64,000 bases of DNA from Cytophagales bacterium (GTDB taxonomy: Bacteria; Bacteroidota; Bacteroidia; Cytophagales; Cyclobacteriaceae), in NCBI GenBank assembly GCA_025359125.1, contig JANYHI010000063.1, forward strand, positions 1-64,000, given 5' to 3'. A model generated the notes under the pieces. The model saw only the letters and a list, made by a program, of their open reading frames with translations, was not told where the DNA came from and did not search any database. Positions 9,443 through 62,211 of the stretch are shown here, piece after piece; position 1 is the first letter of the stretch; every line of letters begins with the position of its first letter. Both the position numbers and the translations under genes were made by a program.

Positions 9443-10021
9443 TTAAGCAAGTTGCTTCTCTACAAGCAACATCAAAATATGAATGATTTTGATATGGACT
9501 TCCTGAATGCGATCGGCATAGCCAAAATGAGGAACCCGCAATTCGATATCGGCAAGTGGCGCCAGTTTACCACCATCTTTTCCGGAAAGTATAATCACTT
9601 TCATTCCTTTCTCCTTTGCTGTTTCTGCTGCTCTGATAATATTAGCTGAATTTCCGCTGGTGCTAATTCCTAATAAAACGTCTCCTTTATTTCCCAACGC
9701 TTCTAAATAGCGAGAAAAAACAAATTCATATCCATAATCATTACTCACGCATGAAATATGACTAGGGTCTGAAATACAAATAGCAGGTATAGCTTTGCGT
9801 GGTTCGCGATATTTTCCGGTAAGTTCTTCAGCAAAGTGCATGGCATCACAGTGAGAGCCGCCATTACCACATGAAATTACTTTGCAGCCAGCCTTTAGAG
9901 ATGTTGCCAATAATTCAGCCGCAGCTTCTATGCTTTGGATGTTTTTTTCATCAGTTGTGAATTTAGTAAGAACAGATGCGGCTTGAGAAAACTCAGCCCG
10001 AATAATTTCCTGAAACCCCAT
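9443..10021 (-). CDS. gmhA: Phosphoheptose isomerase
   Basis: This 192-aa SIS-domain protein matches D-sedoheptulose-7-phosphate isomerase, the first enzyme of the ADP-heptose branch for LPS inner core. The sugar-phosphate loop [17 protein letters not shown], the [10 protein letters not shown] loop and the C-terminal His-rich helix (HIKIIHILM) are all present. It acts in the cytoplasm. It starts 3 bases after a small membrane protein gene and follows an MsbA-like exporter, so the cluster may serve LPS assembly. Some relatives are DnaA-associated DiaA proteins; the metal/substrate loop favours GmhA. Confidence 0.88.
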
Positions 10022-10024
10022 GTA

Positions 10025-10312
10025 TTACTTTTTTGCAGCCTCGGTTAGATCGTACACTTTAGCTTTCAAGGTATTATTCTCATGGCGCATTGCCTCCCTA
10101 TCTTTTTCGGCCTGCTTGCTATCACGCCACGTCCATAAAGCTTCAATCACTAGTAAGGCTAATCCAAATAAAGCCACCCATTTAAAGTCACTGATCTTAT
10201 CAAGCAATTTGAATAAAATAGACTGATCTAAATCCATGTACACTGTAAATCCCAGCGCCACTAAATGATAAGCTCCGAAAACAGAAAGGAAGATGAGTCT
10301 ACGTTTATTCAT
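10025..10312 (-). CDS. Small two-TM membrane protein (95 aa)
   Basis: The family is not recognised. Two hydrophobic segments (about residues 8-25 and 43-60) are followed by a charged helix (about 62-95) likely to form a coiled coil: RDSKQAEKDREAMRHENNTLKAKV reads with heptad-like spacing. The protein is probably inner-membrane with the coiled coil in the cytoplasm. It lies between an MsbA-like exporter and gmhA, only 3 bases from the latter. A role in envelope assembly is guessed from this context. Confidence 0.65.
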   Translation of the reverse strand: MNKRRLIFLSVFGAYHLVALGFTVYMDLDQSILFKLLDKISDFKWVALFGLALLVIEALWTWRDSKQAEKDREAMRHENNTLKAKVYDLTEAAKK

Positions 10313-23631: not shown

Positions 23632-23706
23632 CGAGATGTAGCGCAGCCCGGTTAGCGCATCACGTTAGGGACGTGGAGGCCGGAGGTTCGAATCCTCTCA
23701 TCTCGA
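23632..23706 (+). tRNA. tRNA-Pro, anticodon AGG
   Basis: Acceptor CGAGATG (23632-23638) pairs with CATCTCG (23699-23705). The D arm GCGC/GCGC, T arm GGAGG/CCTCT with loop TTCGAAT, and anticodon stem TCACG/CGTGG are all complete. The seven-base anticodon loop TTAGGGA places AGG at 23667-23669. C1-G72 and G35-G36 are proline identity features. An A at position 34 is uncommon in bacterial tRNA-Pro. Confidence 0.9.
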
Positions 23707-23744
23707 CAACTGGTCTTACATATTAAGACCACTTTGACTAAATA

Positions 23745-48931: not shown

Positions 48932-49123
48932 TCTATTTCAATCTGGAGCACAAAGTTGACGTTTATACGCAAATAAAACAGTTTCAGTTTCAGGATGTTT
49001 GACCATATCAGTTTATAGAAGACACCATTGACTTCTTAGGTTCATCCAAGAGTGAAACGAGTGATTTTTTTTAGACTACTATGAACCTCATTAGACTGTG
49101 ATGGACTAGATAAAACCTTCGTT

Positions 49124-49207: not shown

Positions 49208-50653
49208 ATGAAATTATCAAAATTAACTTACCACAATGGAGCTGTAAAGGTAGAAGTTTATCAGAAAGGTCAGGATAGAAAAAGATGGAATACTGGTGTA
49301 AGGGTAAACAAGACACTCCTTAACAAAGACAAATTTATAAAGCCGAATGATCTAATCGATTGGCAGGATTTAAATATCAAAATTGGTGAGGAGAAGGAGA
49401 GAGTGGATAGAGCGGTAAGGCAGGTTTATAAGGAGGAAAAATATGTCGATGTTCTGAAAGTTTTTGAAATCCTAAACGAACATGAGGCGAATGTAAAAGC
49501 CACAATCGAAGCCAACCGGAGTAGAGCTCTTTTGAAGAACGGTAATGTGAGAAAGAGACTTGGTGGTGCTATCACCGAACTAAGAAGCGGCATTAAATTG
49601 AATGGGGTTAAAAAAGGGAATGTAGCTAAATATGCAACCGGAGAAACACAAACTGAAGAACATCAACTTAAGCTCGATAACGTTAAGCGAGGGCAATTTA
49701 TAAATGAATTGCGCCAATATTTGTTAAAGGAAAGTTTGGTCACTTCTCAAGCAACAATTGCAAAGCATTTTGTTGATTACCTTGAAGAAGGCACTTCGAT
49801 TGTATATTCAGGGCTTATTAGGCATTATCACATTTTCGAATACATGATCGAAAATCCCATTCTTATAGAGGACATTACCGATGGTTGGGTTTCGAAATTA
49901 CAGGCTTGGTTAAAAAAAGGTGTTAAGGGAAAGGAAATTAACGGTAACACATCTGACTGGATGTTTGGTCGGTTCCAATGCTTTTGGACGTGGGCTTTAA
50001 ATAGCAATCTTGTAAACAAAAGATTCCATTGGAAAAGGTTTAAGAGACAAACTTATAAATCGGGCTTTGTTTGGTTAACGGAGGAACGAATCGGTCAGCT
50101 TGCAAGAAAGAAATTTACTGATGAGCAAACAGAGTACAGTAGGATGGCCTACTTAGTGTTAAGTTTAACAGGACTTAGGCATTCGGATTTTCATAGCTTA
50201 ATTCCTAGTGAGGTTGTTTTTGAAAATGGTAAATATTTCATACACAAATCAAATAGAAAGACTAAGTCTGCCTTTAAAACAGCAGTTCACCATTTAATCC
50301 TGAACTGGGTTCGCAGCGAAAGCTGCCTTAGGAAAATGAAGTTGAGCGTTAATCGTGGCATTTCTAATACGAGGCTAAATAAAAGTATTCGTGAAATCGG
50401 TAAAGAGATGGGGTGGACGGAGCAAGTACGATTACAGAAAGGTTTCGATAAGTGGGTATCAAAGCCGTTTTACAAATGGATGAATTGCCATAGCGCACGA
50501 CATACTGCTGTGAGTGTTTGGTTAGCCCAAAGAATTGATCCTACAACTATAAAAAAATGGATTGGATGGAAGGGTAGCAAAATGATTGATTATTATGCGG
50601 ATATTTTGAATATTGACACTAAGGTGAACATCAACGATGTAATTAAATTATAA
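49208..50653 (+). CDS. Tyrosine recombinase (integrase) of the second element
   Basis: This 481-aa protein has an arm-binding N-terminus, an extended linker (about residues 90-160) and a C-terminal catalytic domain. It shows the box-I Arg in LTGLRHSDFHSL, H428 and R431 in HSARHTAV, W454 in place of the last His (IGWKGSK) and Tyr462/463 as nucleophile (IDYYAD). The Trp substitution is also found in Cre-like enzymes, so activity is possible. It is longer than the first integrase (410 aa) and only distantly similar. It reads into the element toward the small genes. Confidence 0.92.
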   Translation: MKLSKLTYHNGAVKVEVYQKGQDRKRWNTGVRVNKTLLNKDKFIKPNDLIDWQDLNIKIGEEKERVDRAVRQVYKEEKYVDVLKVFEILNEHEANVKATIEANRSRALLKNGNVRKRLGGAITELRSGIKLNGVKKGNVAKYATGETQTEEHQLKLDNVKRGQFINELRQYLLKESLVTSQATIAKHFVDYLEEGTSIVYSGLIRHYHIFEYMIENPILIEDITDGWVSKLQAWLKKGVKGKEINGNTSDWMFGRFQCFWTWALNSNLVNKRFHWKRFKRQTYKSGFVWLTEERIGQLARKKFTDEQTEYSRMAYLVLSLTGLRHSDFHSLIPSEVVFENGKYFIHKSNRKTKSAFKTAVHHLILNWVRSESCLRKMKLSVNRGISNTRLNKSIREIGKEMGWTEQVRLQKGFDKWVSKPFYKWMNCHSARHTAVSVWLAQRIDPTTIKKWIGWKGSKMIDYYADILNIDTKVNINDVIKL

Positions 50654-52050: not shown

Positions 52051-52797
52051 TTAAAAAAGTTTTCTGTTTCCGTGAGTGGGTTCAACCACACTGGGCATTT
52101 CATCGTAAGTTTTGCCGTTTAGCAAGCGACCAGTTTTTTTCTTATTAGTGCCTCCCCATTGTTTAAAAAAGAAAGCAACATCGGATTCATCACATTGTTC
52201 CTTAATATCCAAAACCCAATCAACATTCATAGGTCTTGGTTTTCTGCCACTTTCACCTCCAACTATTACCCAATCAATTTTGGTAAGATTCATTTTACCA
52301 ATAGGGCCGATCAAAGGTTCACATGACAAAAATTTAACTTTGGCTTTTGATTTTGACAATAACTTGATTCTATCTTTAACGCGGTCATCTTCTACACTAA
52401 CACCCATCCAAATGTTATGTGTCCATTTTAGCTGCTTTGCCTGATCGTACTCAAGTAATATATCAGCTCGTTTGGTGAGGATTTGGAACACGTGTTGCGG
52501 ATTTTCATTCATTACTGTAAAGACATTCTGTATAAATTCTACCGGTACATTTTTTTGAAACAAATCACTCATAGAATTTACGAAAACAATTTTCGGGTGC
52601 TTCCATGTATACGGTTCAGCCAATACATTTTCATGAAGTGCTAACTTAAAACCATTCTGATACTTTTCAACACCCATTGCTTTTAGTCTTTTCGACATGA
52701 CTTCAGCGTAACAAAATTTACAACCCGCTGAAATTTTGGTACAACCAGTTATTGGATTCCATGTTAACTCTGTCCATTCGATTTTTGACTGCTTCAT
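52051..52797 (-). CDS. DUF5131 / phage Gp37-Gp68-family protein (three-Cys motif)
   Basis: The 248-aa protein starts MKQSKIEWTELTWNPITGC and has three Cys (C19, C26, C29) in a CxxxxxxCxxC pattern, the defining motif of the DUF5131 (Gp37/Gp68) family. The Cys spacing recalls radical-SAM-like or metal-binding clusters, but the family's chemistry is not settled. Later blocks include KIVFVNSMSDLFQKNVP and DWVIVGGESGRKPRPMN. Its ATG overlaps the TcmP stop by 4 bases, and TcmP is the known genomic partner of this family. The pair is translationally coupled and probably one functional unit. Confidence 0.9.
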   Translation of the reverse strand: MKQSKIEWTELTWNPITGCTKISAGCKFCYAEVMSKRLKAMGVEKYQNGFKLALHENVLAEPYTWKHPKIVFVNSMSDLFQKNVPVEFIQNVFTVMNENPQHVFQILTKRADILLEYDQAKQLKWTHNIWMGVSVEDDRVKDRIKLLSKSKAKVKFLSCEPLIGPIGKMNLTKIDWVIVGGESGRKPRPMNVDWVLDIKEQCDESDVAFFFKQWGGTNKKKTGRLLNGKTYDEMPSVVEPTHGNRKLF

Positions 52798-53906
52798 TTT
52801 TTAATCCATTTAATTAATACTGTGGATGTATTCTTATCCATTAAAGCCTCAAAGGTAATTTTCGGGCTCCTTCCATCGTAATCTACCTTCTTGTCTTTTT
52901 TTAAATTCCTTAAGTGATCGGCAGCGTGTTTTGGCGGGTGTCCTAATTCCAATGTATACAAAAAGAGATCGTGGTTACTTACTTCATTAGCTGATTTGAG
53001 TTTTACCTCGATCTTTTGCTGGAATACCTCAATTTTTGTTGGCTTCTTTTCACCGAAGAGAGGATATTGTATTTTACTTGGAGAGTGATCGTTGTCAATG
53101 TCGAAATTCGCCTCTCCATTTGTTCCATTCTTAGCCCATGCTATCGAAAGAAATTTCTCCACTGCTCTTGGGCTTTTTGCTCCAAAAATAATGCCATGCA
53201 GGTTCGATCCTTTTTTTAAACTAAACGGGTATAATTTTAAGTCTGATCCAACAGGCAGATTATTCTTTAGTTGCTTAATAAGACTACGATGTATAAAAGA
53301 ATATGGGTCTTTCTTCGCCTCTTCTATGTCAAAAGAAAAATGCTTTTTGAATTCCTCACTATCGCCAAATCTTAAAAAATAGGAAGAGGATACGAAGTAT
53401 AGGAAGTCCGTCTTTGTGGTTTGTTCTAGTGCATGGAAGTATTTGTTCGAAAGGAATTTAATTCCGTTTTGATCCAAAAAAACTAAGCAAGGATGTTTTT
53501 TAATTTCAGGCAACCATTCAGTAAATCGTTTGTCGAAATCATCTTTTTTTAAATCTAGTTCAATTAAACCGGCTACATCTGAATTTTCTGACAAGTATTC
53601 AGCACAGGCTTTTGACAGTGCATCAAACTTATCTTTTTTATATTCATTGAAATAGATTTTTACTTTAGTTCCCTTGGTTGAGATAATGTCGACAAATTTC
53701 TTAATAACGCGAAGAATTCGAATAGGACTACCTGCAACCTTGCTTTTGTCGTATCCAGTTCCCGAAAAAAAATCAAAAATACAAATGGTTGGTTCTTTTA
53801 GCATGACAAAAGTAGGCAACCAAGCTTCAACGTAAGCTTCGAATATATCGAGCTTTGCAATAGTTGAGTCATCAAATGGTTTATCATGTAAATCTTTTGC
53901 AGGCAT
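52794..53906 (-). CDS. tcmP: TcmP (three-Cys-motif partner) protein
   Basis: The protein (370 aa from the ATG at 53906) has a Rossmann methyltransferase-like N-terminal part. FDFFSGTGYD at about residues 44-53 resembles the SAM-binding motif I, and FLDQNG at about 143-148 sits where relatives have a DPxG-like motif. A C-terminal winged helix (ELGHPPKHAADHLRNLKKDKKV) matches the GMT-like wHTH of TcmP. An upstream in-frame TTG at 53915 is less likely. It is coupled to DUF5131 and follows the type I R-M genes on the same strand by 118 bases. Activity is unknown; a modification or sensing role is inferred. Confidence 0.88.
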   Translation of the reverse strand: MPAKDLHDKPFDDSTIAKLDIFEAYVEAWLPTFVMLKEPTICIFDFFSGTGYDKSKVAGSPIRILRVIKKFVDIISTKGTKVKIYFNEYKKDKFDALSKACAEYLSENSDVAGLIELDLKKDDFDKRFTEWLPEIKKHPCLVFLDQNGIKFLSNKYFHALEQTTKTDFLYFVSSSYFLRFGDSEEFKKHFSFDIEEAKKDPYSFIHRSLIKQLKNNLPVGSDLKLYPFSLKKGSNLHGIIFGAKSPRAVEKFLSIAWAKNGTNGEANFDIDNDHSPSKIQYPLFGEKKPTKIEVFQQKIEVKLKSANEVSNHDLFLYTLELGHPPKHAADHLRNLKKDKKVDYDGRSPKITFEALMDKNTSTVLIKWIKK

Positions 53907-54024
53907 GGCATTCAACCCTTCCGGGGAAAAAAATTATGCAATACTAATATAATGATATTTTTCAGCATTAATGGTCTTTCGTCTTTAACTGCTTCTGATT
54001 TTCAGAATTCTCTTTTTGTAGCAA

Positions 54025-54648
54025 TTAATTCAACTCATTCGCCAATAACTTAGCCTGTTCAATTACAGTTTCCGTTGCTTTGGCTTCCATGTCTGGTGGA
54101 TAGCCGTGTTTTCTTAATATCTTCTTCACAGCAATTCGCATTTTTGCTTGCACGTTTTCACGTACCGTCCAATCAATACTTGTGTTGTTCTTTACGGTGT
54201 CAACAAGTTCACGCGCGATATGCCTAAGCACTTCATCGCCTAAAATAGAAACGGCACTATCGCTCACTTCTAATGCAGTGTAGAAGGCATACTCCCTAAA
54301 ATCCAACCCCAGGTCTGCACCTTTGCGGTCTGCCTCTTTAATGTCTTTGGCGAGAGTGATTAATTCTTCGATGACTTGGGCGGATGTGATTAGGTTGTTC
54401 TGATATTTCTTAACCGCTATTTCCAACATTTCGGAAAACTTCTTTGACTGTACCAAATTCACAGTTTGCCTTGCTTTGATTTCGTCAGCTAATAATTTCT
54501 TCAAAAGCTCTAAGGCAAGGTTTTTATGTTGCATCCCCTTTACCTCAGCAAGAAACTCGTCTGATAGAATTGAAATATCCGGTTTCTTCAATCCGGCTGC
54601 ATCGAAGATGTCCACGACTTCATCCGAAACGATAGCATCGGAAATAAT
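54025..54648 (-). pseudogene. C-terminal fragment of HsdR after an in-frame stop
   Basis: The frame directly after the hsdR TAA continues as [39 protein letters not shown]..., the typical C-terminal domain of HindI-type HsdR subunits (DUF3387-like), and ends in an ordinary stop. A GTG at 54615 could restart translation and make a 196-aa fragment. Because no frameshift is involved, one base change (most simply CAA to TAA, as many relatives have Gln near here, recalled from memory) would explain the break. The fragment is intact otherwise. Confidence 0.85.
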
Positions 54649-57174
54649 TTATTTGATGGCGGTTTCTAGTTCTTCATCCGATTTTGTCTTACTGCTTTCG
54701 CTAACCTTTACTATCCTGGCTTTGATAGCTTGAAATAATCCTACTTCATCGCGTATATCAATCGTGAATGTATGAGGTACGGAAATAGCAAAGGCTTTTG
54801 TTAATGAAGTAACAGCATTAGTATATCGTTCCTTTCCATTCTCCAATCCTAAGATGAAGTTAGCGGCATGGATGGGGAAGTATAGTTTTTCCTTTGGAGT
54901 TAGTCCAAAGAAGTTTTTATAATTGAATCCTTTGGACAATGACTTATCGTGAGGTTGTTCGGAGAATAGCTGAACGACCACTTCGTATTTTCCCATCATT
55001 ACATTGGCGGCCTCTTCCTGATCGAAAGCTGGTTTGCCCTTACCACCGCTTTCTGTATAAACGGATAAAGCCTTTTTCAAATCAGTGGCAATGCCGATAT
55101 AATCAACTACTAAACCACCTTCTTTGTCTTTGTAAACCCGGTTAACTCTTGCGATGGCTTGCATGAGGTTATGTCCTCTCATTGGCTTATCTACATATAG
55201 CGTATGTAAGCAAGGGGCATCAAAGCCAGTCAGCCACATGTCGCGAACAATAACCAATTTAAGCTTGTCTTTGGGGTCTTTCAATCGGTCGCCAATAGCT
55301 TTGTTCTTGAGTTTGTTTCTTACGTGTTGTTGAAAATCTAATGGGTCGGCTGATGATCCAGTCATCACTACTTTTATCGCTCCATCTGTATCATCTTCAC
55401 TATGCCATTCTGGTTTTAGATTGGTTATCTCTTTGTAAAGCTCCACACAAATTCTTCGGCTCATGCACACAATCATGGCCTTACCTTCCAGTATTTGTCT
55501 TGCTTCAAAGTGTTTGACAATATCCTTCGCAATGAGTTGTAGTCTTTGTGGATTACCTACAATGGCTTCAAGCCTTGCCCATCTTGATTTACTTGTTTCT
55601 AAGCGATTGCTGATTCCTTCTTCCTGCTCACCATAATCTTCGAGCTCTTCCGCAACTAGGGAAAGTTGTTCGTCTATTTCGTATTTCTTTTCTTCCAGTA
55701 GTTGAACTTTCGCTAATCTGTTCTCATAGAATATCCGAACGGTGGCTCCATCTTCAACTGCTTGCTGTATGTCGTACACATCTATGTAATCACCAAAAAC
55801 AGCTTGAGTATTCTTGTCGTTATTTTCAATGGGCGTTCCTGTAAAACCTATGAAGGAAGCATTCGGTAAGGCATCTCTCATGTGTTTGGCAAAGCCATCC
55901 ATGAAATCATATTGACTACGATGGGCTTCATCAGCAATCACTACAATGTTCCGTCTATCTGATAACATTTCGTATTGCCCGATAACTCCTTTGGTTTTAC
56001 CACCACCAATATCGATTCGCTCAATAACTTCCGGTAGAAACTTTTGAATGGTGGTAAATACGATACCACCTGATGAAACGGCTAATAGTTTTTTCAACTC
56101 GTCCCGGTTTCCGGCTTGTGTTGGTGTTTGTCTCAATAAATCCTGACTGGAAGAGAATGTATCGAAAAGTTGATCATCTAAATCATTACGATCTGTTAAA
56201 ACAACAAGGGTAGGATTATTGAGTGCCAGCACTAATTTGCCAGCATAGAAAACCATGCTTAGACTTTTGCCTGAACCTTGCGTATGCCAGATAACGCCAG
56301 CCCGTTTATCTCCATTTTCAGATGTTGCTCGTTTGGTAGTTTCAACAGCCTTGTTAACAGCAAAGTATTGATGGTAACGAGGAACGACTTTCGTAATCTG
56401 ATCTTTGTTAACGTGGAAGATTATAAAGTGCCTAATAAGATCAGGCAGTACTTTTTTGTTAAGCAAACCTTTAGCCATCACTTCCATTTGAGGAATGGTT
56501 TCATCTGCCAATCCTTTTCCATCAATTGACTTCCACGGCAAAAAGAATTGCTTCGGTGAGGTTAACGAACCAAACACTGCCTCCCACCCATCAGAGGCAA
56601 TAAGCAATGCGTTGTACTGAAATAAGGATGGTATTGTTTTCTTGTAGGTTTGCAGTTGATTGAATGCTGCACCAATATCAGCACCTTCATTAGCAGCATT
56701 TTTTAATTCAATTACTACCAAAGGCAAACCGTTTACAAAAAGAATGAGGTCAGGTCTTTTATTGGTGTTGCCCTCAATGATGGTAAATTGATTGACGACT
56801 AAAAATTCATTTTGTTCTGGTCTCTCATAATTAATGAGCCAGACTTTATCTCCAACAATCCGATCTCCTTTTCTGTATTCTACATCCACTCCATCGGTAA
56901 GGTATTTGTGAAACTGGTAGTTGTTTTGAAAAAGGTTGGGGCTATCACTACGCAATATCTTTCGTATAGCTTCTTCCTGTGTCTCGCTTGAAACTTTTGG
57001 ATTGAAAGTAGAAATGGCTTGTTGTAACCGTTGTTTTAATACTACTTCATTAAACTCCCTTTCCTGAGCAATACCATCTGGTGAAATATCAGCACCATTA
57101 ATGTATTGATAGCCCAGGGAAATGAATTCCTGAATGACAACTTGCTCGATATGGTCTTCGGAGATAACTGCCAT
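54649..57174 (-). CDS. hsdR: Type I restriction HsdR subunit, C-terminally truncated by a TAA
   Basis: The 841-aa product has the HsdR N-terminal nuclease domain ([22 protein letters not shown]-ExK type) and a superfamily 2 translocase. The translocase shows Walker [31 protein letters not shown] and later [12 protein letters not shown]. It lacks the last ~200 residues, which follow in frame after TAA at 54649-54651. Those residues normally contact the M2S methylase. The start is the ATG overlapping the hsdS stop (TGATG). In an intact enzyme HsdR cuts DNA after translocation; here the restriction activity is in doubt. Confidence 0.93.
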
Positions 57175-58418
57175 CACATAACTTTTTCAGCTAGTTTTTC
57201 TGATACTTTTAATTTACCTGAAATTAGGTCTGGTAGTATAATATCACGCAACTCGCTTAGATATCTAGTCTCTTCAAGGTTACATTGAATTTGATCAAGG
57301 ATTGGCATGGAGAACGATGCAAATAGCTTAAGGACATCATCCGGTGGACGTGACTGAACTTGCTCTTTTAAATCTTTTACAGTGACGTGCCCAAGCCCTG
57401 TTGTTTGTTTGTCTTTGGCAATGGCAATAAATTTCGGTTTCCAATATTTTAACATCGAATATACAAAAGCTCTTTCTTCGATAGATTGACACACAATTTT
57501 GAAAATATGCTGATTGAGCCATGCTTCTCCGTAAACCCAAAGAAATGTATCAATAGATGTTTCTGGACTACCTGACCACGAAAACAATATATCACCCGTA
57601 TCAATTTTATACTTATCACCTAAATTGGTGTTAGTGTATTTCGTACTATCAGTAATGCCAGACTTCAACTCAACAATTTTTATTACAGGTAAAGAATCTG
57701 GAGATTCTGTAAAGTACATATCCTTATAGGCAGCACCATTTATGTATGACGCAAAGTCAAATAAGCATCTTTGAGTCCAACCTGTAGGAATCTCACCCAA
57801 CTCACTCTCTATCATTTCACCTCCAGATGATTTGTAGGGTTGACCATCTTCATTGGGGAATTCAAAATCAACAAACCATTGCTTAAACAAAGCTTGTGCT
57901 AAAGCTTCTAAGTTTTTATTGATTTTGTTGTTGAGTTCTATTTTGTCATCGAGGGAAGAAAGAATTTCGGCAATGGCGATTTGGTTGGTGAGGTCGGGAA
58001 TACTCCAACGAGTTTCACTAAGGTGTTTCCAATCTGCTCTAGGCATCCGTGTTCCGGTACTCCCAGAGTTTGCCAAGGTTGTAAAATCATCTGTTGCAAT
58101 TAAGTAGAAAAGGAACTTTGGATTAATGCCTCTCTTGGATTTAATGACATAAATATCTGTAGAGCAAACACCAACAAATTGAGGTGAATAGACTTTTTTA
58201 AAGTATGGTCTTAGTTTTCCATACAAAATATCATCTGGGTAGAATTTTGCTTTTTGGCTAGTTACATCAGATGATTTTCCAATTCCATTCAAACGCAGCC
58301 CCGCTGGTTCAATATGCTCTAATCCTATATAAGGAAGAATAGTTTCTTCATTGGGAATGAAACCTTCACGCCTTATTTCTGCGATCTCTCCTAAACTATA
58401 TTCATTCCAAGTGGTCAT
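57174..58418 (-). CDS. hsdS: Type I R-M specificity subunit HsdS
   Basis: The protein (414 aa from [15 protein letters not shown]) has two target recognition domains separated by conserved helical spacers: [38 protein letters not shown] for the first and [16 protein letters not shown] near the end. Each TRD reads half of a split DNA target. It overlaps the preceding RloC/PrrC-like gene's end only slightly and the next gene by one base (TGATG). The stop of the upstream gene lies 3 bases from this start. Confidence 0.93.
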
Positions 58419-58420
58419 AT

Positions 58421-60700
58421 TTATTTTGAGCAAACCTTAACCATGTTTTTATAATGAGTATCGTCTACTTTTTCAATAATCTTAAAAACAGTTTCAATTA
58501 CTGACACACCTTCAGCTTCAATGTTCTCAAGCGTATTTTCAAATGACTCAATACGATCTAAGTGGCTATACTTATTCACATAATAAAACACCTTGTCCGT
58601 ATCTAGTTTATCAATCCCAACACCATTAGCCATTTGCAGAATGCCATTGAACCCGGAAGTATCTTGTGTTTTGAATGAGTTGAAAGATTCTAAGAGCCTT
58701 CGAGAATAATTGGCAATGGTATAAGCATCGTCCAATGTCAGGGTGTGTTTACTCAGTTTCAAAAGACTATCAAAGATGTAGTGATATTCTGAGTGGTAAT
58801 TCACTAAAGTGCTTTCCGCATTCTTTAAGGAACCCTTTCGAATGGTATAAAAATGACCAACAAGAGTAGCATTGTCTTTTCTCTTTTTTTCATTCTTTCG
58901 ATTTGCCCAATCTCTTACTAGTTTGAAAAACCAGAAATTGTGAGTTAGGAAAAATATTTGTTCTGCCAGCTCACACTTATTGGTAATGTAGGCACTTGCA
59001 CTGAATAAGTGATTGCTATCAAAACTGGAGATAGGATCGTCAAAAACGAGAATGTTCTTTTTTATATCATTTCCCTTTTCAAATAACTTTACGATGAAGT
59101 ACACCAATGCTATTGCCGTTTTCTCACCCTCACTTAGGTTCTCAGCGATTGAATCATTTCTTTTGATTAAGTAGCCTCCTTCTCCTGAAGAATTTTTCTC
59201 AAGCGTTATGTCGTTTCTTGATAGAAACTTATGTAGGTCTTTGTTAATATCATCAATTGCAATTTGATCATCTAACAATTGTCGTCTTTTATCTTCGATT
59301 TCTTTGGTAGTAGCAGCGATGGATGATTCAATTTCTTTGATTTTAGCACTGGATTGTTCGATGTCAACTGTTGTATCGTTTAAGCTCTCAAGAATAGCTT
59401 TGGACGCAACAATATGTTTGAATATTGAGCCCTTGTGTTCGTTGGCTTTATTTTCAAAATCAGCAACTAATTTATTGTGCTTTGTAATATTTGCCTTTAG
59501 TTCGTTTAAATAGTGGTTATAAAGATTAATGGTTTCGGCACTGCCAATTGAAGATATTTGAAATGACAACTTTAAGGGATTACTATGCTTCTCCTCAAGT
59601 GATGAAATCCATTTTGATACTTCGTTATTGATTTCTGATCTCTTTTCTTCAGCAAACTGGAAAAATTCTATCGATTTATCTTTTAGTTCGGGAAACCAGT
59701 TTTCGTGATCTATTGTAACAGATGAGATTTGAAATGATTTTAATTCAGTAATTTTTTCGCTTATCCTTTTTTGAAATTGTATGAAAGCATCGTTGAAATG
59801 GTCCGCGAGTGCGGCCTCACGTTGTGGCTCAATCCCATTTCCACAATATTCACATTTAAGACTATTATGTTTCTTATGCAATCTTATCCCTGTCTGAATC
59901 CATGCAGCCAAATCCGGGTTATCCTTTAATCGTTGGATACTATTGTTGACAGGATTTTCTTCCAAAAGTTTCCTCACTGAATTGAAGTGACCATCACATT
60001 CCTCATTTTCAACGTTGCGGAAGTTATTTCTAAAGGCACTTCTTTTTACACCTTGAGCAATAAACGATCTTTTGTGCTCTTCGTCTTGCTGAAGTAAAAC
60101 AAAATCTTGCAGTGAGTTTCCGGTTTGTATTTCATTCCAAATTTGTTCAGCCCCAGTTTTATCAAAGTTAGGTAACTGAAAGATGGTTGATAAAGAGTAC
60201 GTTTTAATGATTTGCCCTGCGTTAGTAAAGAAATCCTCTTTTACTTTTTTTAAGGACTTAAGCCGTTCCTTTTCAGTTTGTAATTCCAATTTTTTTCCAC
60301 CCTTTCCATCTGCACCAGAATGCTGTCTTGTCAGTTCGTCAATTGCTTTTTTAAGTTCATTATTATCCTTGCCAATATATAGCAGTGCGTTGGTCTTACC
60401 ACGCTCAAGGTTAGTGTTGTCGTTTATGAAGTCCTTATTAAATACTTTTATTTGCGGTGGTTCATTGTCGAAAGTCTCATCAATATTTACGGTATCTGTT
60501 TCGATTTTAAATTTGGCTTTCGGAAAAAACTTTTTTTCCTTTGGCAATTCAAGGGTTCTAAATAACCTTCCTAAAGTTGTTTTCCCACTACCGTTCCAAC
60601 CATATATCACGTTGTATTTAGCAAAGGAAGATAAACCATCTTCTTGTTTATAGTTTTCAAATATGCCAAAGTCTTTTATGTCTGTAAGTTTGGTTATCAT
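58421..60700 (-). CDS. RloC/PrrC-like AAA_13 ATPase, candidate anticodon nuclease
   Basis: The 759-aa protein is an AAA_13-type SMC/ABC-like ATPase. It has Walker A GWNGSGKT (34-41), a long coiled region with a zinc-hook-like C283-x-x-C286, the signature LSEGEKT (522-528), Walker B VFDDP (552-556) and H587 (FLTHN). The C-terminus carries R667-x3-E671 (RRLLE) and later H713 (NKYSH), the Arg-Glu...His arrangement of PrrC/RloC anticodon nucleases. PrrC guards a type I R-M system and cuts tRNA-Lys when the system is disabled by phage. RloC is related, with a zinc hook. The gene sits between hsdM (4-base overlap) and hsdS. The nuclease call is inferred; plain AAA_13 proteins are the alternative. 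Confidence 0.72.
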
Positions 60701-62211
60701 AAATCAATACCAATTTTTTTGAGATTGTTTTTGATTCTTGTTTGCAGCTCATTTGATTGATGAAATTGTATTTTAAGCTCACTTGTTATCAAGGAGACTT
60801 TTTCATCAAAACTAACCCCGTCATCTTCGATTTCTTCAGTACCTACATATCGACCCGGGGTTAATACAAAGTTGTTTGCTTCAATCTCTTTTTGAGTAGC
60901 CGCTTTACAGAAGCCTTGTATGTCTTGGTATTTACTTCCCTTATTTCTCCAATTATGATAAGCTCCGGCTATACGAGCAATATCATCGTCAGTAAGTATG
61001 CGGTTCTTTCGGCTCGTCATTACACCCAACTTACGAGCATCAATGAAAAGAATTTCATTGCTTCTATCTCGGAACTTATGGTTCTTTCTATTACGTGCCA
61101 GAAACCAAAGGCAAGCTGGGATTTGAGTGTTATAAAAAAGTTGGGTTGGAAGAGCTACCATACAATCAACCAAGCCTTCTTGTATCATTGCCTTGCGGAT
61201 TTCATTTTCCGTTCCTGAATTGGTAGTCATCGAACCATTGGCTAATACTATGCCACCAGTTCCAGTAGGACTGAGTTTATTTGCGAATAATTGTAACCAG
61301 CCATAGTTTGCATTACCAGAAGGTGGAATACCATATTTCCACAAATGACTATCCAGTAATTGCTCACCACCCCAATCCGAAATATTGAAAGGTGGGTTGG
61401 CCATGATGAAGTCAACCTTTAAATCCTTATGCCTGTCATTGTGGAAAGTATCCCCCAATTCAATTTTTGCATCGATACCCCTAATGGCCAGATTCATTTT
61501 AGCCAATTTATAAGTAGTTGGGTTACTCTCTTGCCCGTAAACAGCAATGTCGCCAATCTTACCACCGTGAGCTTCCAAAAATTTTTCACTTTGCACAAAC
61601 ATTCCACCCGATCCACAACAGCCGTCATAAATTCTACCGCTATATGGTTCGAGCATTTCAACCAACAACTTCACAATGCTTTCAGGTGTATAGAATTGGC
61701 CGCCCCGTTTGCCTTCTGCATCTGCAAACATGCCTAGGAAGTACTCATACACTTTTCCTAATAAGTCTTTACTGTTGTGTCCTTTCTGGTTGAAGCCAAC
61801 GTTTCCGATAAGGTCTATTAGTTCACCCAATCTCTTCTTATCCAAAGCAGGTCGTGCATAGTCTTTCGGTAACACACCTTTCAGGCTTGGGTTGTCTTTT
61901 TCAATAGCATCCATTGCATCGTCAATGTCTTTGCCGATGGTGGGAAGCTTCGCCCGTTGATGTTGAAGGAAACTCCACCGGGCGGATGGGGGAACATAGA
62001 ATACGTTCTCAGCTAAGTACTCATCTTTGTCTTCAGCATCGGAGTGTTTGTCGGTTTTTAGCTTCTGGTATAGCTCATCGAAAGCATCGGAGATGTATTT
62101 CAAAAAAATGAGCCCAAGCACCACGTGCTTGTACTCAGCCGCGTCCATGTTATTGCGAAGTTTGTCAGCCGTAGCCCAAAGGGTTTTTTCTAAGTCTTTA
62201 ATGTCGGTCAT
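60697..62211 (-). CDS. hsdM: Type I R-M methyltransferase subunit HsdM
   Basis: A full HsdM of 504 aa with the N-terminal HsdM_N helices (about 1-150), [16 protein letters not shown], the SAM-binding motif [10 protein letters not shown] (196-205) and catalytic NPPF (272-275), an N6-adenine methylase pair. With HsdS it methylates the recognition site. It is the first gene of the operon, so the upstream interval at 62212-62812 should hold the promoter. Its stop overlaps the start of the RloC/PrrC-like gene (ATGA). Confidence 0.96.

Follow-up and report, generated by a model that had tools for sequence, protein, structure and literature searches.

Does a type I restriction-modification operon whose hsdR frame holds a single in-frame TAA still produce a restriction enzyme and, if it does not, how did the stop come about? 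The question is raised by an operon in the window, by which we mean the whole 64,000-nucleotide stretch of DNA that was analysed (contig JANYHI010000063.1, from a Cytophagales bacterium). We consider it probable that hsdR was recently hit by a nonsense mutation, at a codon where Gln is nearly invariant, and that this removed the C-terminal region of the protein. Restriction has likely been lost and methylation kept. On its own the case is an ordinary one, a routine loss of restriction by an hsdR nonsense allele, or an error, in an operon of known kind, and there is a small remaining chance that the stop is programmed.

The operon and the hsdR reading frame

The operon runs on the minus strand in the order hsdM, rloC-like gene, hsdS and hsdR, with the following features.

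60697..62211, minus strand: hsdM, open, from sequence-family matches and defence-system annotation
58421..60700, minus strand: RloC-like AAA_13 gene (PADLOC PDC-S06), with Walker A, LSEGE, C283-x2-C286, R667-x3-E671 and S712-H713
57174..58433, minus strand: hsdS, open, with two Methylase_S stretches
54025..57174, minus strand: hsdR frame, 1050 codons including the internal stop, with ATG at 57174 and an alternative GTG at 57177
54652..57174, minus strand: HsdR residues 1-841, covering the nuclease domain, the motor domain and a portion of the helical region
54649..54651, minus strand: in-frame TAA, hsdR codon 842 of 1050, from frame reading and orthologue alignment
54025..54648, minus strand: remaining 207 codons of the HsdR C-terminal region, past the stop, from the T1RH-like_C match and constraint comparison

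The adjacent hsdM and hsdS are both open, as a sequence-only reading of this DNA had implied and as a type I operon should have them. The hsdR frame is interrupted at codon 842, and we therefore do not class it as a working restriction enzyme. The interruption is also as that reading gave it, one TAA (54651..54649) with the same frame continuing beyond: the residues ...EELETAIK precede the stop, no base is gained or lost in the frame around codon 842, and a second TAA terminates it. Family profiles place HSDR_N, SWI2/SNF2, T1R_D3-like and T1RH-like_C along the frame, together with TIGR00348 hsdR; the nuclease, the SWI2/SNF2 motor and the T1RH-like C-terminal region are all present, with most of the last lying past the stop. 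The C-terminal family is also what bears out the suggested likeness to HindI-type HsdR. Homology extends across the junction, as had been expected: positions 1-123 of the Pfam T1RH-like_C profile align upstream of the stop and positions 125-328 downstream, a single position being absent, which indicates that one codon was replaced and that there is no frameshift. Taken alone, the part after the stop matches the same profile with E = 5.7e-91, so its homology is not due to chance. The front part of hsdR has a single matching place in the source genome (3.68 Mb, 87 contigs). In a 50-row HsdR alignment D142/E156/K158, G300/G302/K303/S304 and D415-H418 are invariant, and we take these residues to be the catalytic signatures of the nuclease and the motor.

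The RloC-like neighbour

The product of the gene between hsdM and hsdS matches AAA_13 (E = 6.1e-123), with Walker A at 34 and LSEGE at 522. It has one CXXC in mid-protein (C283-x2-C286), and R667 and E671 are followed, after 41 residues, by H713, with S712 directly before it. The sections of PMC2610378 that describe RloC give as its marks a Rad50-like zinc hook (CXXC in a coiled-coil insert) and the motif Arg-x3-Glu-x36-52-His, in which Ser often precedes the His. Since the CXXC is found besides R-x3-E and SH, the neighbour is by its motifs RloC-like rather than PrrC-like, and a candidate anticodon nuclease. The proposal that an intact candidate anticodon nuclease lies beside hsdR thus stands as far as the motifs go, with RloC-like being the more exact name. 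A PDB sequence search with this protein returned no match.

How does the locus compare with systems already described? According to the sections of PMC2610378 on gene linkage, RloC is rarely linked to type I restriction-modification (8 of 72 mapped to type I or another system), and the rloC of Geobacillus kaustophilus adjoins an hsdR relic. With the RloC-linked type I loci (Campylobacter jejuni rlo and G. kaustophilus, in the corresponding parts of PMC2610378 and PMC5183652) the window shares an ABC ATPase with CXXC and R-x3-E...SH in an hsd locus, and an earlier instance of damage to an hsdR next to rloC is known there (PMC2610378). However, the G. kaustophilus hsdR is a fragment, whereas that of the window contains one nonsense codon in an otherwise open frame. 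EcoprrI with PrrC, a type IC system as outlined in part of PMC3874165, likewise has an anticodon-nuclease-like gene inside the hsd operon, but the window protein carries CXXC and is RloC-like, and the window hsdR is interrupted. Spontaneous hsd nulls have also been published: Table 1 of PMC8084154 includes an hsdR of 992 codons in group A Streptococcus that stops prematurely at codon 794, late in the gene like the stop of the window, although that stop arose by a 4-nucleotide insertion.

Stops among hsdR orthologues

Gln had been named as common near the position of the stop, and at codon 842 it is indeed the usual residue, present in 157 of 170 distinct orthologues (stop 2, Lys 4, Asn 3, Met 2, Arg 2). 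This set consists of sequences at least 40% identical that cover the codon, and it draws on more genomes and viral contigs, with the best 30 loci from each of two further searches and six regions; sequences below 40% identity, loci short of codon 842 and duplicates with identical post-codon residues were left out. By this count Gln is nearly, though not fully, invariant. The two stops are those of the window and of L099/L270, the former of these labels standing for contig MGXG01000005.1 of the MAG 'Gammaproteobacteria bacterium GWE2_37_16', where hsdR has TAA at codon 842 too and an open tail. In the first locus set, 17 of the 111 loci end short of the codon and the 94 alignments that span it show Gln in 87, a stop in 3 (two of them the window itself), Glu in 2, Gly in 1 and a gap in 1. 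Among 26 hsdR-like loci spanning the codon in viral contigs, 17 have Gln and none has a stop. A DNA-level search of a plasmid collection found no relative, and the relatives found there at the protein level are all less than 60% identical.

Twelve in-frame stops occur in 11 of the 170 orthologues, window and L099 included, a fraction that is somewhat inflated because the stop-bearing L163 and L164 were fetched on account of a stop shown in a table. They lie at scattered codons, those of the other orthologues at aligned codons 38, 470, 497, 531, 761 together with 776, 803, 834, 995 and 1040. Losses by in-frame stop are therefore not rare in hsdR, and caution is called for: one such stop is no ground for proposing a two-part or readthrough enzyme. 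In a genome of the same genus (G029) the hsdR orthologue occupies two overlapping frames (L167, 4109-7295), with the break at about codons 862-865, near the same domain boundary as the window stop.

Origin of the stop

If the tail had long been out of use it might be expected to have decayed, and we compared it with the front part in the window and in its nine closest relatives (78-82% identity). In all nine pairings with the window synonymous changes have reached saturation, so the comparison is limited to replacement rates and invariant columns. Tail/front dN ratios come to 0.81 in pairs with the window and 0.85 between relatives, and where the relatives are invariant the window has changed 2 of 106 tail columns and 26 of 545 front columns. 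Judged from these substitutions, the tail appears to have been constrained as in its relatives for nearly all of the window's separate history, which is what a young stop would show. Constraint of this kind would be seen alike after a very recent mutation, with a base-call error, or if the tail were still in use.

Among the origins that the sequence-only reading had listed, a recent nonsense mutation fits best, although by sequence alone a sequencing error would look the same. The stop is the only one in a frame with family homology on both sides, it replaces a residue that is Gln in most orthologues, and it lies within the part that can be aligned to EcoR124I HsdR; all of this supports a nonsense mutation. 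This explanation is weakened by the L099 hsdR, 55.7% identical to that of the window, with TAA at the same codon near an RloC-like gene, by the low model confidence around the stop (pLDDT <50 at 826-868), where a split might be tolerated in a poorly ordered stretch, and by the fact that a tail still in use would look equally intact and constrained. A nonsense mutation at Gln codon 842 of hsdR in the hsdM/rloC-like/hsdS/hsdR operon would leave an HsdR of 841 residues in which the nuclease and motor motifs are retained but the helical region is cut short and everything beyond it is missing. Such a protein would presumably carry out no DNA restriction, HsdM and HsdS would keep methylating, the RloC-like protein would stay as a separate defence, and the C-terminal frame would be a relic too young for decay. 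If hsdR were intact and the stop a base-call or assembly error, this would agree with the single affected codon and the fully constrained tail, but hsdM, hsdS and the rloC-like gene alongside are open and hsdR stops are not rare among genomes, even if some of these are perhaps errors themselves; we consider an error unlikely.

Could the C-terminal region still be produced? Leaky readthrough of the TAA, which would yield a little full-length HsdR and thereby limit restriction, would suit a stop that has replaced a Gln codon ahead of a constrained tail, and the L099 stop falls at the same codon with ATT after it, as in the window. On the other hand, no stop-reading anticodon was seen among 34 tRNA matches in the genome, a list which looks incomplete, since scoring covered 150 of the 231 first-look candidates and no match was named as tRNA-Ile; the RNA at the junction shows no structure out of the ordinary (z -0.37). 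As a stop codon TAA is commonplace here: it closes 34 of the 54 large open frames within the 81 kb examined, the hsdR front included. Readthrough, which had been among the earlier suggestions, gains no positive support from these results, and we give it very little credence. It is also highly improbable that HsdR is a two-part enzyme, in which the 841-residue front is joined by a C-terminal piece with a start of its own. The intact, constrained tail would suit such an arrangement, as would a GTG at the 12th codon past the stop, and in an AlphaFold2 model of the readthrough HsdR (mean pLDDT 75.2, pTM 0.59) the stretch with pLDDT below 50, residues 826-868, surrounds the stop and joins the helical region to the C-terminal helices, so that given this poor local confidence a split protein may be structurally possible. 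However, the same model puts codon 842 within a predicted helix, 833-850, itself of low confidence. The restart at GTG 54615 that had been proposed finds no backing in promoter sites either: sigma-70-type sites around the stop number 3 on both strands against a shuffle mean of 3.5, with one weak promoter-like site on the coding strand (sigma-70 type only), and the window and L099 have no start site in common, the first start codon past the stop in L099 being a TTG at the 33rd codon (8587). The model aligns to EcoR124I HsdR (2w00_B) with Z 26.9 and rmsd 5.8 over 575 residues, the last aligned pair being model 854 and EcoR124I 824, and the stop is thus inside the aligned part. The EcoR124I row of VIA-align was used for this, the remaining rows matching the motor part only; past model residue 854 no row matches, and the C-terminal domain has no structural match in that alignment. 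As a separate observation on the tRNA genes, ARAGORN places a tRNA-Pro with anticodon AGG at 23632-23707 of the window, and tRNA-Pro UGG is found elsewhere in the genome.

A possible linkage of the stop to RloC

More questions arise from L099, whose locus also carries an AAA_13 gene, 29% identical to that of the window. Is a stop at codon 842 perhaps selected in RloC-linked operons, the shortened HsdR serving the control of RloC and not DNA cutting? Both TAA cases are RloC-linked, and an eighth RloC-linked locus, L112 (G162), lacks most of hsdR, which is reduced to about its first 98 residues (10006-10302). But in the seven RloC-linked hsdR genes readable at codon 842, TAA is found in two and Gln in five (L087, where hsdR and the RloC-like gene are about 4 kb apart, L113, L114, L177 and L190). 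The gene order also differs between the two TAA cases: the rloC-like gene of the window lies between hsdM and hsdS, and the AAA_13 gene of L099 follows hsdS, with two further genes before hsdR. As the window is the case that raised the question, Fisher tests of stop against RloC linkage were run with and without it. Against 78 other loci of the first set (one with a stop), among which L108 ends short of codon 842 and some flanks are short enough for a more distant RloC gene to escape, p = 0.017 when the window is counted and 0.14 when it is omitted; if the comparison is with all 163 other orthologues (9 of them carrying stops), the values are p = 0.067 and 0.31. In simulations one or more of the 11 other stops fell on codon 842 with P = 0.024-0.086 (transition weights 1-8), and any codon was shared among the 12 stops with P = 0.18-0.35. 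Selection of the stop for RloC control seems to us extremely improbable, and there is a very faint chance that it recurs under selection in rloC operons, where the short HsdR, or else a small amount of readthrough product, would sense for or restrain a tRNA-cutting RloC. An association of the stop with RloC was rejected, being not significant once the window is omitted and with Gln in five of the seven linked genes; from the sequences compared, the RloC linkage of the codon-842 stop is a lead and not a result. If the stop were shown to recur with rloC, type I restriction could be tested directly for a link to the control of RloC.

RloC-like genes are mostly found without an adjacent hsdR of the window's kind. 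Of 17 genome regions with an RloC-like gene, three have a close hsdR (L112-L114), one has a distant one (L121, 29% identity) and 13 have none. No hsdR of this kind was found at three plasmid RloC-like loci or in L271-L274.

Surroundings of the operon

A 17-bp direct repeat is present at 48974-48990 of the window and at 72818-72834 of contig C31 (L269), and a repeat this long appeared in 0 of 300 mononucleotide shuffles. The two copies flank an integrase gene (49208-50653), a TcmP-like pair, the hsd/rloC operon and a VapE-like gene, and may mark the ends of an integrative element, about 24 kb long, with the defence genes as its cargo. At 52051-53915 of the window, a TcmP gene (TIGR04474, above cut-off) adjoins a DUF5131 gene that resembles radical SAM mobile pair A at a score under the cut-off, and PADLOC lists the pair as candidate defence PDC-M30.
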